Shown here: one piece after another, positions 37,676 to 44,950 of the stretch
Layout: every line of letters begins with the position of its first letter
Position numbering within the stretch: the first letter of the stretch is position 1
Source of the DNA: Parvibaculum lavamentivorans DS-1
GTDB taxonomy: Bacteria > Pseudomonadota > Alphaproteobacteria > Parvibaculales > Parvibaculaceae
NCBI RefSeq assembly: GCF_000017565.1
Contig: NC_009719.1
Location: 620,001-684,000 of the forward strand
Direction: 5' to 3'
Length of the DNA stretch: 64,000 bases
Program-made: the position numbers and the translations under genes
Notes under the pieces: generated by a model
Told to the model about the DNA's origin: nothing
Databases searched by the model: none
The model's input: only the letters and a program-made list of their open reading frames with translations

Positions 37676-39067
37676 CTATTCCGCCGGAATGACGAGGCCG
37701 GGCCGCGCGCCGCGTATCGCTTCGGGCTTCTCGCCTTCCTCGCCCACGGAAAGCGGATCGGGGCCTTTGCGGACAAGCTTCGTGAGGTAATAGAGATAGG
37801 CGCCGAAAAGCCCGCCATAGACGATGAGGAAGAGGACGAGCGTCGTCGCGACGGCCTCTGCCGTGACGGTGGGCGAGACGCTGTCGGCGGTCCGGACCAT
37901 GCCATAGACCGTCCAGGGCTGGCGGCCGACCTCCGTGACGAACCAGCCGGCCAATGTGGCGATGAAACCGGCAGGCGTCATGACAAGGGCTAGGCGCTGG
38001 AGCCAGCGGTCCTCGAAAAGGGTGCCGCGCCAGCGCGACCAGACGCCCCATAGGCCGAGCAGGAGAAACAGGAAGCCGATACCGACCATGACGCGGAAGG
38101 ACCAGAAGACGATGCCGACAGGCGGCTGGTCCTCGATCGGCACTTCGTTGAGCCCCGGCACGACGCCCGACGGACTATGCTTCAGGATGAGGCTCGAACC
38201 CAAGGGAATGGAAAGTTCCAGATGATTGGTCTGCGCCTTCTGGTCCGGGATCGCGAAGATATGGAAAGGCGCGTGAGACTGCGTCTCCCAATTACCCTCC
38301 ATCGCCGCAACCTTCATCGGCTGATGTTCGAGCGTGTTAAGGCCGTGCTGATCGCCGAGAAATATCTGCAGCGGCGCGAGCACGAGCAGCGCCCAGAAAG
38401 CGGTGGAGAAGGCAGGCCGCGCGATTTCAGCATTCTGGTTTCGCAACAGATAGAAACCGGAGACACCGGCGATGACGACGCTTGTCGTCAGGTAGGACGC
38501 CGCTGTCATGTGCATCAGGCGATAGGGAAAGGACGGGTTGAAGATGACCGCGAGCCAGCTATCGACCACGAAATGGCCGTCGATGAAGGTGGCGCCCTGC
38601 GGCGTCTGCATCCAGCTATTGGCGGAAAGAATCCAGAAGGCGGAAATCGCCGTGCCGATGGCGACGAGGCAAGTGGCGAGGAAGTGGAGACGGGGCCCCA
38701 CCTTGTCCCAGCCGAACAGCATGATGCCGAGAAAGCCCGCTTCCAGGAAAAAAGCGGTGAGCACCTCGAAACCGATCAACGGTCCGAGCACGGGGCCCGT
38801 GATGCGCGACCATTCCGACCAGTTGGTGCCGAGCTGATAGGAAAGCACGATGCCGGAGACGACGCCCATGCCGAAACTGAGCGCGAAGATCTTCACCCAG
38901 AAGCGATAGAGCCGGTACCAGACTTCATCGCCCGTGCGCAGGAACTTCGCCTCGAAGAAGACGAGAAAGCCGCCGAGGCCGATGGTCAGCGTCGGAAACA
39001 GGATATGGAAAGCGATGGTGAAGGCGAATTGAAGCCTGGCGAGAATTTCTGCGTCCAGAGGCGGCAT
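37676..39067 (-). CDS. cydA: cytochrome bd-type quinol oxidase subunit I, cyanide-insensitive (short Q-loop) type
   Basis: A 463-residue heme-binding subunit. The N-terminal heme ligand is H21 (FAFTIAFHILFP); RLMHMTAASYL carries the b558 His near 187; GDQHGLNTLEHQPMKVAAMEG lies in the Q-loop, which is short. GRQPWTVYGMVRTADSVSP near 390 is typical of the CioA branch. GGAGATG precedes the ATG. Low-oxygen or cyanide/sulfide conditions are the usual setting; it complements the CuA oxidase at the window's left end. Confidence 0.95.
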   Translation of the reverse strand: MPPLDAEILARLQFAFTIAFHILFPTLTIGLGGFLVFFEAKFLRTGDEVWYRLYRFWVKIFALSFGMGVVSGIVLSYQLGTNWSEWSRITGPVLGPLIGFEVLTAFFLEAGFLGIMLFGWDKVGPRLHFLATCLVAIGTAISAFWILSANSWMQTPQGATFIDGHFVVDSWLAVIFNPSFPYRLMHMTAASYLTTSVVIAGVSGFYLLRNQNAEIARPAFSTAFWALLVLAPLQIFLGDQHGLNTLEHQPMKVAAMEGNWETQSHAPFHIFAIPDQKAQTNHLELSIPLGSSLILKHSPSGVVPGLNEVPIEDQPPVGIVFWSFRVMVGIGFLFLLLGLWGVWSRWRGTLFEDRWLQRLALVMTPAGFIATLAGWFVTEVGRQPWTVYGMVRTADSVSPTVTAEAVATTLVLFLIVYGGLFGAYLYYLTKLVRKGPDPLSVGEEGEKPEAIRGARPGLVIPAE

Positions 39068-39213: not shown

Positions 39214-40743
39214 TCAGCGGATGACGCGTTCCGACGGAAAATGGACGCTGATTTTCATGCCGATTTCCGGCCGGTGCCCGGGCTGGCCGCGTTCCGCGCG
39301 CATGATATTGAGCCGGCCGCCATGCAATTCCATCACCTTGCGGGTGAGAGAGAGGGCGAGGCTTTCCTCGCGCGGCGCGCTGCTGTCTTCCGCGCTGACG
39401 AAGGGATCGTCCGTGCCAACGATATAGGGGAATGCATCCTGCTCCATCAGAGCGTCGGTATGCGTCCTGATTTCGTCGAGCGTCACGGCAATGCCGCCAT
39501 CTTCTTCCGCCACGCTGAGGCGGATGGTGGAACCGCGATGCGCCGTATGCACGGCTTCCGCGAGAAGACGGAAGAGGCCCTGACGGAGACGACGCGCATC
39601 GCCCCGGAAACCGGGCAGGCGCTCGGGACAGGAAACCTCGATGGTGACGCCCTCGATAGCCGCGTTCTGACGCTGGCTGGCGACGGCGATCTCGGCGAGC
39701 TGGCCGAGATTGCAGATTTCATCCGTGAGATCGATCTGGTCCATTTCCGCTTCGGCGATGCCGAGCAGATCCTCGATCATGTCGAGCAGCATGGTGCCGC
39801 TCGAATAGATGTCGCTCGCATATTCCTTGTAGCGGTCGGTGCCCATGGGCCCGAGGCGCTCATTCTTCATCATTTCCGAGAAGCCGATGATATGCGTGAG
39901 CGGCGTGCGCAGGTCGTGATTGACGTTGGAGAAGAAGCTCTGGCTGCGCTTGCGGGTTTCCTGGCTGCGCGCTTCCACGGCCTGCATCGTCTCTTCGAGC
40001 TTGCGCCGGACGGTCACGTCGTTGAGCGCCGCGACGCGCGCGGGAACGCCGCCCCAGCGTGTGTCGACGATGCGCATTTCGGCGAAACGGTTATCGCCGT
40101 CGGGCCGCCGGATCGTGATGTCGTGCTCGCCGGGCTCGCTCGGCAGACCAAAAGGCTGGCCGACCAGTTCGCTGCCGCGGCCGAGAAGTTCCTGCGCCGC
40201 ACCGTTTGCGAAGCGCACGGTGCCCTGGCTGTCGAGAATGACGATGGCTTCCGGCGTTTCCTGGACGAGCGTGACGTGAGGGCCGGCTTGCGGGGTGGGC
40301 ACAGGCTCGCTTGCACCGTCTTCGCGCATGATGCGCCGGGCGACGGCGCGGCGGATCGCGAGGCCGACCGCGCGCGGTTCGTCCGTATCGGTGGAAAGGC
40401 AGTCTTCCGCCCCTGCGCCGATCACCTCGGCCTGGAGCGCCGCATCGTCGGCACCGATGGCGATGACCGGCGCATTGGGGCCAAGCGCGATGACACGGCG
40501 GAGAAAGCCGAGCGCAACGGGACCGCCATCGCCGATGTCGATAATGAGCGCGTCGATGCCGGGCTCGAGCAGCGGCTCGATGCCGTCATCGGGAACGGAG
40601 AAACTGAAATCGATCGGACCCGCGGCCGCCGAGGCGGCAACTTTGCCGAGCTCTTCACGCAGCGCGGTGGACGCGCTGACGAGATGTGCCGCGAGCGGGG
40701 GCAATACATGCAAGCCGCCTGCGAAACCGGAGCTGTTGCTCAT
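39214..40743 (-). CDS. PAS-containing sensor histidine kinase with degenerate ATPase domain
   Basis: A 509-residue protein: a receiver-like N-terminal region (about 45-140), a PAS domain (about 155-255), a HisKA dimerisation helix with phospho-acceptor H276 in NHDLRTPLTHI, and an HATPase-like C-terminus (about 370-505). In the latter the N-box Asn is replaced by Glu (LLAEA, E396), no DxGxG is seen and the G2 region reads SLALSL, so ATP binding is doubtful. It may act as a phosphatase or a phosphorelay partner. No membrane segment. A TTG 19 codons upstream is possible, but the ATG at 40743 is preferred. No response regulator is adjacent. Confidence 0.85.
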   Translation of the reverse strand: MSNSSGFAGGLHVLPPLAAHLVSASTALREELGKVAASAAAGPIDFSFSVPDDGIEPLLEPGIDALIIDIGDGGPVALGFLRRVIALGPNAPVIAIGADDAALQAEVIGAGAEDCLSTDTDEPRAVGLAIRRAVARRIMREDGASEPVPTPQAGPHVTLVQETPEAIVILDSQGTVRFANGAAQELLGRGSELVGQPFGLPSEPGEHDITIRRPDGDNRFAEMRIVDTRWGGVPARVAALNDVTVRRKLEETMQAVEARSQETRKRSQSFFSNVNHDLRTPLTHIIGFSEMMKNERLGPMGTDRYKEYASDIYSSGTMLLDMIEDLLGIAEAEMDQIDLTDEICNLGQLAEIAVASQRQNAAIEGVTIEVSCPERLPGFRGDARRLRQGLFRLLAEAVHTAHRGSTIRLSVAEEDGGIAVTLDEIRTHTDALMEQDAFPYIVGTDDPFVSAEDSSAPREESLALSLTRKVMELHGGRLNIMRAERGQPGHRPEIGMKISVHFPSERVIR

Positions 40744-41184
40744 TGCGATGCCTGGACGTGCCAAGATCTGACCTGCTTTCGCCCCCCAAGGGCCCCGCAA
40801 CCTGATTCATATTAGTGCGCGCAGACGATTTGCCGCGCCGTGTGGGTTAACGTTCCGCTTATTTGGTAAACAGAACGTAAAGGGATCGGCTATTTTGTGG
40901 TTTCAAAATTTAGACACACAAAAGCCATAATTGGACCCTTACGGAAATTTTCTTTTATTTCAATAAGTTAAGTAGAAAATGCTGCCCGCTTGGGGAAAAC
41001 GACGGTTTTCCTCAGGCGCCCATTCTGAAAACCGTTTCGTTGCCGAAAAGAGGATGCCCGAGGCTCCTTTGTACATTCATTCCGCTCAGTGATTCGCCGC
41101 CAGCGGCAGGGGCGCCGGAGCTTGTGAGGCGGGGAGCGATGGGCTAGGTATGCGCCCGCGCGGTTTCCCTGAGATTCAAGGCCC
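40744..41184. other. 441-base intergenic region with inverted repeats before hisS
   Basis: No gene is seen. The part 40850-40980 is AT-rich, unlike its surroundings, and would suit divergent promoters. ACGTTC (40850) and GAACGT (40873) form an inverted repeat. AACGA-CGGTTTTC (40998-41010) pairs with GAAAACCG-TTTCGTT (41027-41041), a strong hairpin with a 16-base loop and a small bulge that could be part of a hisS leader or a small RNA. None matches a family I know. Confidence 0.5.
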
Positions 41185-42705
41185 ATGAACAAGAGCCAGA
41201 AGAGTTTCCGCCCCAAGGCGCGCGTGCCGAAGGGGCTTCGCGATATGTCCGCCGGCATGGTCCGCGCGGAAGAGCGCATGCTTGCGCGCATTCGCGAAGT
41301 CTATGAACGCTACGGCTTCGACCCGCTGGAAACCTCCGCCTTCGAATATGCCGATGCGCTCGGCAAGTTCCTGCCGGACGAAGACCGCCCGAACGAGGGC
41401 GTGTTTTCCTTTCAGGACGATGACGAGCAATGGCTGGCGCTGCGCTACGACCTGACGGCGCCGCTCGCGCGCTATGTCGCGGAAAATTACGACGCGTTGC
41501 CGAAGCCCTTTCGCCGCTACCAGACGGGGCCGGTGTGGCGGAACGAAAAGCCGGGGCCGGGCCGCTTCCGCCAGTTCACGCAATTCGACGCCGATACCGT
41601 GGCGGCACCCGGCGTCGCCGCCGATGCCGAGATGTGCATGATGGGCGCCGATTGCCTTGAGGCGCTCGGCATTCCGCGCGGCAGCTATCGCATCCGTGCC
41701 AACAACCGCAAGGTTCTGGACGGGTTGCTTGAGCGGATCGGCATTGCCGGCGAGCCGGGCAGCACGACCTATATGACGGTGCTGCGCGCCATCGACAAAT
41801 ATGACCGGCTGGGCCGCAAGGGCGTGGAACTGCTGCTCGGGCCGGGCCGCAAGGACGAGTCCGGCGACTTCACCAAAGGCGCAGGCCTGTCGCCCTCGCA
41901 GATCACCGCCGTGGTCGACTATGTGGAGTCCGGCGTCGGCGAAGGCGCAAGCGACCGCAAGCTCGTGCTCGACGGCTGGCGCAATGTCGTCGGCGAGAGC
42001 GCCATCGGCCGCGAAGGCCTCGACGAGCTGGCCGAAATGGACGCGCTGTTCACGGCGGCGGGCTACGGGCTCGACCGCATCGAATTCAACTCATGGATCG
42101 TGCGCGGGCTCGGCTATTACACCGGCCCGGTTTTCGAATCCGACCTTCTTTTCGAGGTGAAGGACGAGAGCGGCAATCCCGTGCGCTTCGGCTCCGTCGG
42201 TTCGGGCGGGCGCTATGACGGGCTCGTCGAACGCTTCAAGGGCGTGAAGGTGCCCGCGACCGGCTTTTCCATCGGCGTGAGCCGCTTGCAGGCAGCGCTC
42301 GAACTTCTCGGCAAGCTCGACGTCGAAGACGTGCTGGCGCCGGTCGTCGTGCTGACCCTCGATGCGGAGAACATGGCAGGCTACCAGTCGATGGTGTCCG
42401 AGCTGCGGGCGGCGGGCATCCGCGCCGAGCTTTATCTCGGCGGCTCCGGCATGAAGGCGCAGCTCAAATATGCCGACAAGCGGGGCGCCCCCATCGCCGT
42501 CATCGAGGGCGAGGACGAGCGGATGAAGGGCGAAGTGACGCTGAAAGACCTCATCCTCGGCAGCGAAATGTCGAAGGAAATCGAGGACAACGCGGCCTGG
42601 CGCGAGGGCCAGCCGGCGCAGGTGGCCGTGCCCCGCGCCCGCCTCGTGGAAGAAGTGATGGCGATGCTCGCCCGGCATCGCAGCGTCCGGGGCCATCACG
42701 GCTGA
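41185..42705 (+). CDS. hisS: histidyl-tRNA synthetase
   Basis: A 506-residue class II aminoacyl-tRNA synthetase that charges tRNA-His. Motif 2 [26 protein letters not shown] region begins near residue 112 (broken here by length), the HisA motif [10 protein letters not shown] near 310 and the motif 3 [11 protein letters not shown] near 335 are complete. The C-terminal anticodon-binding domain ([10 protein letters not shown]... onward) is present. It heads a cluster with hisZ and hisG, linking charging and synthesis of histidine. Confidence 0.96.
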
Positions 42706-42797: not shown

Positions 42798-43976
42798 ATG
42801 TCGTCAACATCCATGGCAGCACTGGACGGAGAAGGCCTCCGCGCCCGCGAGGCGCTGGCGGTGGCCGTGCGCGCGGGCTTCGAGGGCGCGGGCTATGCGC
42901 CCGTTTCCGCGCCCGTCATGCAGCCCGCCGATATTTTCCTCGACATGTCCGGCGAGGATATCCGCCGCCGCATGTATGTCTTCGCCGATCCGGCGGGCGA
43001 GGAATTGTGCTTGAGGCCCGAACTCACCATTCCCGTCTGCCGCCTCTATCTGGAAGGCGCGGGCGGACCGAAGAAACTCTGCTCCGTCGGCGCGGTTTAC
43101 CGCTACCAGCAGAAGGGGTCGGCGAAGCTGCGCGAATTCACGCAAGCGGGCCTCGAATGTCTCGACGCGGCGGACGCGGAAGCGGCGGATGCCGAGGTGA
43201 TCTCGCTCGCCGCGCGGGCGCTGGCCGATGCGGGCCTGAAAAATTATGAAATCGAAATCGGCGATCTCGCGCTGTTCGATGCGCTGGTCGATGCGCTCGA
43301 CCTGCCGCCCGGCTGGCGCTCGCGCCTGAAGCGGCACTTCTGGCGGCCGGATTATTTCCGCGAATTGCTGGCGCGGCTCGCGGCAGGAGATGCAGGCGAC
43401 GAGACGGGCGACAAGCAGGCGCTGATCTCGGCGTTGGCGGGCCTCGACGAGGAGCGCGCAAAGGATGTGATCGAGGATGTGCTGAAACTTGCGGGCATTG
43501 CGCCTGTCGGCGGCCGGACGGTGGAAGAAGTGGCCGAACGACTGCTGGAGCAAGCGGAGCTGGCATCCTCCAGCGTGCCACGCGCGGCGGCCGAACTCAT
43601 CTCGGGTTTCCTCGCCGTATCGGGCACGCCGAAAGAGTGCATCGCGCGCATCAAGGCGTTGACGGGCGGGGCAGGCGTCTCCATCGACGCGGCGATTGCG
43701 CGCTTCGAGCGGCGCATGGAACTGACGGCGAAAGCGGGGCTCGATCTTTCCCGCGCACATTTCGCCACCGGCTTCGGCCGCAACATGGCCTATTACACCG
43801 GCTTCGTTTTCGAGTTCCGCGTGGCGGCGCTCGGCGTCGATGCGATGATCTGCGGCGGCGGACGGTATGACGATCTCCTCTCGGCGCTCGGTGCGGCATC
43901 GCCCGTGCCCGCGGTGGGCTGCGCGGTCGGCATCGAGCGGCTGCTCGCGGCCGTGGCGAAGGAGGCCGGCAAATGA
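42798..43976 (+). CDS. hisZ: ATP phosphoribosyltransferase regulatory subunit
   Basis: A 392-residue HisRS-like protein without tRNA charging. It keeps class II fold motifs ([11 protein letters not shown] near 74, TQAGLECLD near 115, [11 protein letters not shown] near 325, [10 protein letters not shown] near 352) but lacks the anticodon domain and follows hisS, from which it derives. HisZ is needed for activity and feedback control of HisG in bacteria with a HisZ-dependent enzyme. The last codons overlap hisG (ATGA). Confidence 0.92.
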
Positions 43977-44950
43977 GCGGCAAACTCGTGATCGGCCTGC
44001 CCTCCAAGGGAAGGCTCCAGGAAAATGCCAATGCCTTCTTCGCGCGTGCGGGGCTGAAAGTCCGGCAGGATGGCGGGCGCGGTTATACCGGCCGGCTCGA
44101 CGGCATGGCGAATGTCGAGATCGCGTTTCTTTCGGCATCCGAAATCGCCGGGCAATTGGAGCAGGGCATCATTCACCTCGGCGTGACGGGCGAAGACCTG
44201 ATCCGCGAGAAGCTCTCCGCGCCCGAACGCGACGTGGAGCTGCTGCTGCCGCTCGGCTTCGGCCATGCCGATGTCGTGGTTGCCGTGCCGCAAAGCTGGA
44301 TCGATGTCGCGACCATGGCCGACCTCGACGACGTGGCGCTCGCCTTCCACACGAAGCGCGGAAGGCGGCTGCGCGTCGCGACCAAATATTTCAACCTGAC
44401 GCGGAGCTTCTTCGCCGAGCACGGCCTGACGGATTACCGCATCGTCGAAAGCCTCGGCGCGACCGAAGGCGCACCGGCGGCGGGCACGGCGGAAGTGATC
44501 GTCGATATAACGTCCACCGGCGCGACGCTGGCGGCGAATAATCTGAAGATCCTCGACGACGGCACGATCCTGAAGAGCCAGGCGAACCTTGTCGCGAGCC
44601 TGGGTGCTGAATGGAGCGATGCGGCGCTGAAGGCGGCGGGCGAAATTCTCGACCGCGTCTCGGCACAGGCGCGCGCGGCCAAAGTCATCGAAGTCCGCTT
44701 CGCGGGCGAGGGCGACGACGCCGCGCTGCTGGATGAACTGAAGAAACGCTTCGGCGTGACGCTGCCCTTCGGCAATGGTGTCGCACCCGTGCGCATCGCG
44801 CATTGCCCGGAGGCCCGGCTCTACGATCTCGTTGCCTTCCTCTATGCGGAAGGCCGCGACACCGTAACGGCGGTGCGCGCGGATTATGTGTTCGAGGCGA
44901 AGAACCCGCTGCGCGAGCGGCTTGTCGCGCGGCTGAAGAACGGAAACTGA
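43973..44950 (+). CDS. hisG: ATP phosphoribosyltransferase catalytic subunit
   Basis: A 325-residue enzyme for the first step of histidine synthesis, condensing ATP and [19 protein letters not shown] at the start, [18 protein letters not shown] near 88-105, and the PRPP-binding loop [15 protein letters not shown] near 182-196 are seen. It is longer than the classical short form, as in other alphaproteobacteria. The ATG overlaps the hisZ stop, so the two subunits are coupled. Confidence 0.95.

Follow-up and report, generated by a model that had tools for sequence, protein, structure and literature searches.

The window analysed here is a 64,000-nucleotide stretch of the Parvibaculum lavamentivorans DS-1 genome, which consists of one contig of 3,914,745 bases. 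Its minus strand carries a gene for a sensor-kinase-like protein, hereafter the pseudokinase, which lies divergent to hisS-hisZ-hisG in Parvibaculaceae and in one other family. The features concerned are listed below, with g and f labels denoting the genera and families compared.

39214..40743, minus strand: pseudokinase gene, 509 amino acids plus stop, with its ATG at 40743
40318..40701, minus strand: pseudo-receiver domain, residues about 15-142, Asp69 kept, Thr/Ser and Lys sites gone
40015..40281, minus strand: PAS domain, residues about 155-243, from PF13188, PF00989 and the predicted model
39739..39960, minus strand: DHp/HisKA domain, DivJ/PleC/PdhS-like, residues about 262-335 (HisKA 5e-13, PdhS 2e-29, DivJ 2e-25, DivL 4q20)
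39904..39918, minus strand: H276-D-L-R-T280, phospho-acceptor His and DxxT phosphatase-type motif, with H, D, R and T in 27/27 proteins
39892..39894, minus strand: His284, specificity position H+8, invariant in 27/27 aligned orthologues
39229..39726, minus strand: HATPase-like (CA) domain, residues about 340-505, no ATP-site residue left
39556..39570, minus strand: former N-box, Arg392 and Glu396 replacing both Asn, both invariant in 27/27
39460..39474, minus strand: former G1 box, E-I-R-T-H where D-x-G-x-G is expected (Asp to Glu, both Gly lost)
39346..39369, minus strand: former G2 box, E-E-S-L-A-L-S-L in place of G-x-G-L-G-L (GxGxG to E-x-S-x-A)
40866..40883, minus strand: conserved element CCTTTACnTTCTGTTTAC, some 130 nt upstream of the pseudokinase ATG
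41185..42705, plus strand: hisS, divergent neighbour kept in other genera and in f121, a synteny marker and not a proposed partner
42798..43976, plus strand: hisZ-like gene
43973..44950, plus strand: hisG
37676..39067, minus strand: cydA, 146 nt downstream of the pseudokinase, not beside the g19-g21 orthologues

The seven codons ahead of the ATG (TTG GCA CGT CCA GGC ATC GCA, 40744-40764) are largely kept in frame, and the in-frame TTG at 40764 could serve as an alternative start and may be the true one. Across 10 Parvibaculum-group sequences the element CCTTTACnTTCTGTTTAC, which lies between hisS and the pseudokinase and may be regulatory, hardly varies. The consensus of the CtrA box is TTAA-N7-TTAA, and a scan of 19 upstream regions with this consensus gave exact matches in two related g21 loci only, with at least two mismatches in the window. 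The divergent arrangement with hisS-hisZ-hisG is shared by f121, while in f4 hisS lies close to a receiver-PAS gene, with 4-5 genes between. A functional link to cydAB was rejected because no cydAB occurs at that place beside the orthologues of g19-g21. In g19, g20, g21 and f121 the gene directly downstream, convergent to the pseudokinase, encodes CheZ (PF04344), which was rejected as a partner since 4/4 Parvibaculum genomes searched gave no CheZ match; the neighbouring CheZ of L061, L069, L060, L115 and relatives has a C-terminal SQ-D/E-DIDALF-like tail. No response regulator gene was found among the neighbours examined.

Pfam matches and the predicted model (mean pLDDT 76, pTM 0.42) give the domain order pseudo-receiver, PAS, DHp and CA, with PAS matched at residues 158-199, HisKA at residues 268-331 (49.3 bits) and HATPase_c at residues 381-505, barely over its cut-off (28.2 versus 26.4 bits). 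The last match indicates that the HATPase fold is kept, and as both HisKA and HATPase_c pass their Pfam cut-offs, annotation pipelines would name the protein a sensor kinase. The original prediction, which gave no strand, had an intact His276 in NHDLRTPL, replacement of the N-box Asn and the G-box glycines, and a receiver-like domain at the N-terminus. The histidine is in place in the 509-residue minus-strand product, and the replacements are borne out by the residue counts below. The receiver claim holds for the fold, residues about 15-143 of the model matching receiver chains at Z about 16, and needs amending in that the domain is a pseudo-receiver followed by a PAS domain (about 155-243) of which the prediction made no mention. 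A true receiver has an acid pair, an Asp, a Thr/Ser and a Lys. Of these, Asp69 is present in 27/27 aligned family proteins; the 7/7 Parvibaculaceae rows inspected have lost both the Thr/Ser and the Lys and carry Ser at the first acid position, with D or E at the second in 3/7.

The ATP site was scored in one alignment at nine canonical positions, namely two Asn and the Lys of the N-box, the Asp and two Gly of G1, and three Gly of G2. The window pseudokinase has none of the nine (0/9), its N-box Lys being His399; 20 further HisKA kinases encoded in this genome each have 8-9. The genome holds 21 other HisKA-type kinases in all, and the one that the ATP-box alignment missed, at 466226-466951, was read directly, and its N, G1 and G2 boxes are intact. 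Of the hallmarks of a functional HisKA kinase the protein has the phospho-acceptor His276, within its 49.3-bit match, and lacks the N, G1 and G2 boxes. Aligning the HATPase boxes across orthologues, as the prediction had proposed, extends the finding to the family: all 27 rows, the window protein included, have 0-2 of the nine residues, and the N-box is altered in 36/37 distinct orthologue ORFs with an H-box motif, the one exception being a truncated ORF, so the loss is due neither to chance nor to sequencing error. Relatives in f121 and f123 have just 2-3 of 9 left. Arg392 and Glu396, one helix turn apart, could pair with each other, and a Phe occupies the F-box position in 27/27 rows. ATP chemistry is almost certainly lost from this protein. 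Elsewhere in the same genome, a kinase-like frame on the minus strand (L006, G000:C1:3369185-3369796) has 8/9 ATP-site residues and an H-box without His; it has stops upstream and is possibly a relic of the opposite type.

Orthologues occur in 38/40 genomes of the order, and both genomes without one belong to genus g18. When 385 genomes sampled evenly over the class were searched, a match at 1e-70 was obtained in 10, comprising five of the own family, three of f121, and f64 and f155, the last two with intact ATP boxes. The f121 protein is the same kind of pseudokinase and lies beside hisS. A profile of the N-terminal part matches 22/385 genomes at 1e-15, including three f4 and two f123 genomes, though several of the matches are unrelated receiver-PAS proteins. 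In the two f123 genomes the protein is PAS-DHp-CA, with the His kept, the following acid lost and the ATP site lost, and in the three f4 genomes the gene stops where the DHp would begin, leaving receiver and PAS only. This stand-alone pseudo-receiver and PAS gene of f4 (L116, L117, L123) comes after genes for an ECF sigma factor and a zinc-finger anti-sigma-like protein. In a DHp-CA tree built without L006b (a partial kinase) and L002 (a duplicate), Parvibaculaceae, f121 and f123 form one clade (support 100/99) separate from 24 other kinases, with f121 placed within g19 (branch 2.5) and f123 on a branch of 2.15; long-branch effects and shared CA decay may help this grouping. The hisS synteny and the shared N-terminus are independent support for the kinship of f121. 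Judged by the sequences, the loss of the ATP site is that of an old, fixed pseudokinase lineage, because orthologues are present in 38/40 genomes of the order and 27/27 keep His276 and Thr280 and share Arg392 and Glu396. One orthologue (L070, in G048 of g19) has in-frame stop codons, which reflect either sequencing error or local decay.

All domains of the pseudokinase are under purifying selection, and the gene is not decaying: over 228 pairs of Parvibaculum genes with dS below 1.2, pooled dN/dS is 0.11 for DHp, 0.18 for PAS, 0.26 for CA and 0.32 for REC. The idea that a hyper-conserved DHp would prove use of the His was refuted by a control over 16 shared genomes, in which identity is higher for a PdhS-like kinase whose boxes are intact than for the pseudokinase, in both DHp (88% versus 76%) and CA (64% versus 55%). 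Divergence of CA relative to the protein's own DHp gives a ratio of 1.9 in the pseudokinase compared with 3.0 in the control, which suggests that the CA domain still has a job.

Within the DHp and the former N-box, His276, Asp277, Arg279, Thr280, His284, Arg392 and Glu396 are identical in 27/27 aligned proteins. The His and the Thr four residues on are near-universally invariant in ordinary HisKA domains, so their invariance here says little as to whether the pseudokinase uses them. The DHp-CA sequence best matches NCBIfam PdhS, with HrmK and DivJ next, at scores far under the PdhS and DivJ equivalog cut-offs (102 versus 2000 and 89 versus 1000 bits). Of the marks of the PdhS/DivJ/PleC group, the protein has a PdhS-type HisKA with His and Thr(+4) and lacks the conserved catalytic HATPase_c. 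At the specificity positions, which we mapped from the HK853 residue numbers in the titles of 4jas and 4jau, the pseudokinase has the same Gly(+11), Phe(+12) and helix-2 Asp as the majority of PdhS-like kinases in the genome.

The DivJ/PleC/PdhS/DivL group, to which the DHp is closest, handles DivK and PleD, and the DivK circuit is the candidate partner. The divK and pleD genes are adjacent to each other elsewhere in the genome. At 1e-25, DivK was matched in 14/17 genomes tested, that is, in every genome tested from the own genus, g19, g20, g21, f121, f123, f64 and f155 and in 2/3 of f4, with no match in 2/2 genomes of g18, which also lack the pseudokinase. One of the g18 genomes is only 68% complete, and the other (G042), rated 100% complete, is without DivK, the pseudokinase and an L003-type kinase at the thresholds used. 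This co-absence, a single event seen in two genomes, points to a tie between the pseudokinase and the DivK circuit; against it, f4 has no DHp and yet has DivK in 2/3 genomes. Loss of the DivL kinase part in genomes lacking DivK, which has been described in other groups, was rejected for G042, in which the DivL match covers residues 297-898 of 919, DHp-CA part included.

We tentatively prefer, at a little under even chances, the reading that the pseudokinase is an ATP-independent phosphatase and/or phosphotransferase for DivK-class regulators (DivK, PleD), acting in the manner of ChpT or PhyT. At a more general level, its retained and lost residues indicate a protein that probably moves or removes phosphate instead of supplying it; all orthologues have lost the ATP site but share an unvarying acceptor His, DxxT motif and docking helix, which makes transfer or removal the most economical reading. 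We infer the use of His276 and Thr280, the direction of phosphate flow and the identity of the partner. PAS and pseudo-receiver would sense or position, and signals would bend the DHp four-helix bundle, on which a phosphorylated DivK-class receiver would dock. Its phosphate would then be hydrolysed with help of the DxxT motif (Thr280) or, alternatively, be parked on His276 and passed to a second receiver, with the CA domain, without ATP, serving as a structural and regulatory flap. In this regard, a Thr four residues past the His aids phosphatase activity in many sensor kinases, and PdhS2 H271A still complements, phosphatase activity being dominant, according to PMC7003649. ChpT is described in PMC3433190 as lacking autokinase activity and having an ATP fold that is atypical, PhyT, whose ATPase domain is degenerated, is given in PMC5898713 as passing phosphate from SdrG to PhyR, and PhyK, in PMC5964349, is functional with ATP binding abolished and not functional without its His. 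Phosphate acceptance from, or removal from, another protein had been the proposal of the original prediction; the invariant His, DxxT and docking helix and these precedents speak for it, while the lack of a partner gene in the neighbourhood and the scaffold alternative below count against it.

The main rival, less probable than the preferred reading and nonetheless one to be taken seriously, is a silent scaffold or allosteric partner that binds a regulator in the manner of DivL and DivK~P, or forms a mixed dimer with an active PdhS-type kinase in the manner of RetS and GacS, with His276 unphosphorylated. DivL, itself a pseudokinase, is the closest PDB match by sequence (4q20) and, among the matches listed, also by predicted fold (Z 18.9, rmsd 4.3, 211 aligned; in a second comparison Z 19.8, rmsd 4.8, 210 aligned), RetS structures rank high among the matches listed, and DivL works without a phosphorylated DHp, as reported in PMC4211667. 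A CA domain that is still constrained without catalytic residues is what an interaction surface would be expected to show, and f4 has dropped the whole DHp. Conversely, DivL has Tyr for His, but the pseudokinase family keeps the His in 27/27, and the f123 relatives keep it even with the following acid lost.

An ATP-free phosphotransferase or phosphatase acting on a receiver other than DivK or PleD is unlikely. The 53 receiver matches in the genome offer many candidates, and position +8, which is Ala in 14/20 other HisKA kinases tabulated for the genome, is the invariant His284 here and separates the pseudokinase from the PdhS-like kinases, a substitution that may mean another partner. Gly(+11), Phe(+12) and the helix-2 Asp nevertheless fit the PdhS-like pattern, and g18 is without both the pseudokinase gene and DivK. 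We consider it very improbable that the protein is an unorthodox active kinase binding nucleotide via shifted residues: the HATPase fold and the F-box Phe (27/27) are retained, but Arg and Glu occupy the N-box Asn positions in a protein with 0/9 canonical residues, the f121 and f123 relatives are likewise depleted, and the ATP-lid region of the model (residues 430-445, ahead of the former G2 box) has pLDDT <50. That it is a functionless decaying relic, as the lost catalytic residues and the in-frame stops in G048 might suggest, is scarcely credible given retention in 38/40 genomes of the order, dN/dS well below 1 in every domain, the new invariant residues Arg392 and Glu396, and a place beside hisS that is conserved across families.

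The same genome encodes a DivL-like protein (L156) with Tyr for His and the ATP boxes kept, the mirror image of the pseudokinase. In Parvibaculaceae and one or more further families the DivK circuit might have two opposite pseudokinases, DivL and the His-keeping protein without an ATP site, the latter giving it an ATP-free branch, a proposal we regard as rather doubtful. Were it true, DivK~P would donate phosphate or be emptied, and single-domain DivK would feed a back-relay like SdrG for PhyT. The families represent a series of stages, from intact (f64, f155) through ATP site gone and His kept (Parvibaculaceae, f121) and acid gone too (f123) to kinase part absent (f4). Such a series can be used to ask which of the two halves of a histidine kinase holds the retained function, and whether the DivK/PleD circuit owns an ATP-free phosphatase or transfer branch beside DivL. 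A literature search of partial coverage yielded no report recognised as concerning this pseudokinase family or a PdhS-type protein without an ATP site, nor any genome combining the two mirror-image pseudokinases.

Histidine kinases that degenerated into phosphotransferases are already known, and several systems resemble the pseudokinase in part. The DivJ/PleC/PdhS kinases are like it in DHp sequence, in regulator-docking positions and in having the His with the phosphatase Thr four residues on, but those described in PMC7003649 have a conserved catalytic HATPase, whereas the pseudokinase lacks the nine ATP residues and has a pseudo-receiver in addition. DivL shares the PAS-DHp-CA order and is a pseudokinase of the same signalling circle, yet it lost the His (Tyr) and kept the ATP boxes, while the window protein kept the His (27/27) and lost the boxes. 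RetS of Pseudomonas aeruginosa, a HisKA-type fold with a high structural match, is bound to the DHp of another kinase in 7n0e; its mechanism and sensor domains are unlike those of the pseudokinase. ChpT and Spo0B have a DHp-like bundle as the pseudokinase does, to which ChpT adds a HATPase-like domain not using ATP; ChpT is not known to have a receiver or a PAS domain. No sequence match of ChpT to the pseudokinase was seen, and its absence from the best 50 matches listed in each of two structure comparisons bears neither way on shared lineage. Replacement of the ATP lid by extra helix turns, as given in PMC3433190, is a feature of ChpT. Lastly, PhyT/PhyP and PhyK are histidine-kinase-like proteins that pass phosphate between regulators without ATP binding, the ATPase domain of PhyT being degenerate; PhyT is membrane anchored with an HRxxN motif, as described in PMC5898713, whereas the pseudokinase is of HisKA type with HDLRT and a receiver-PAS front.
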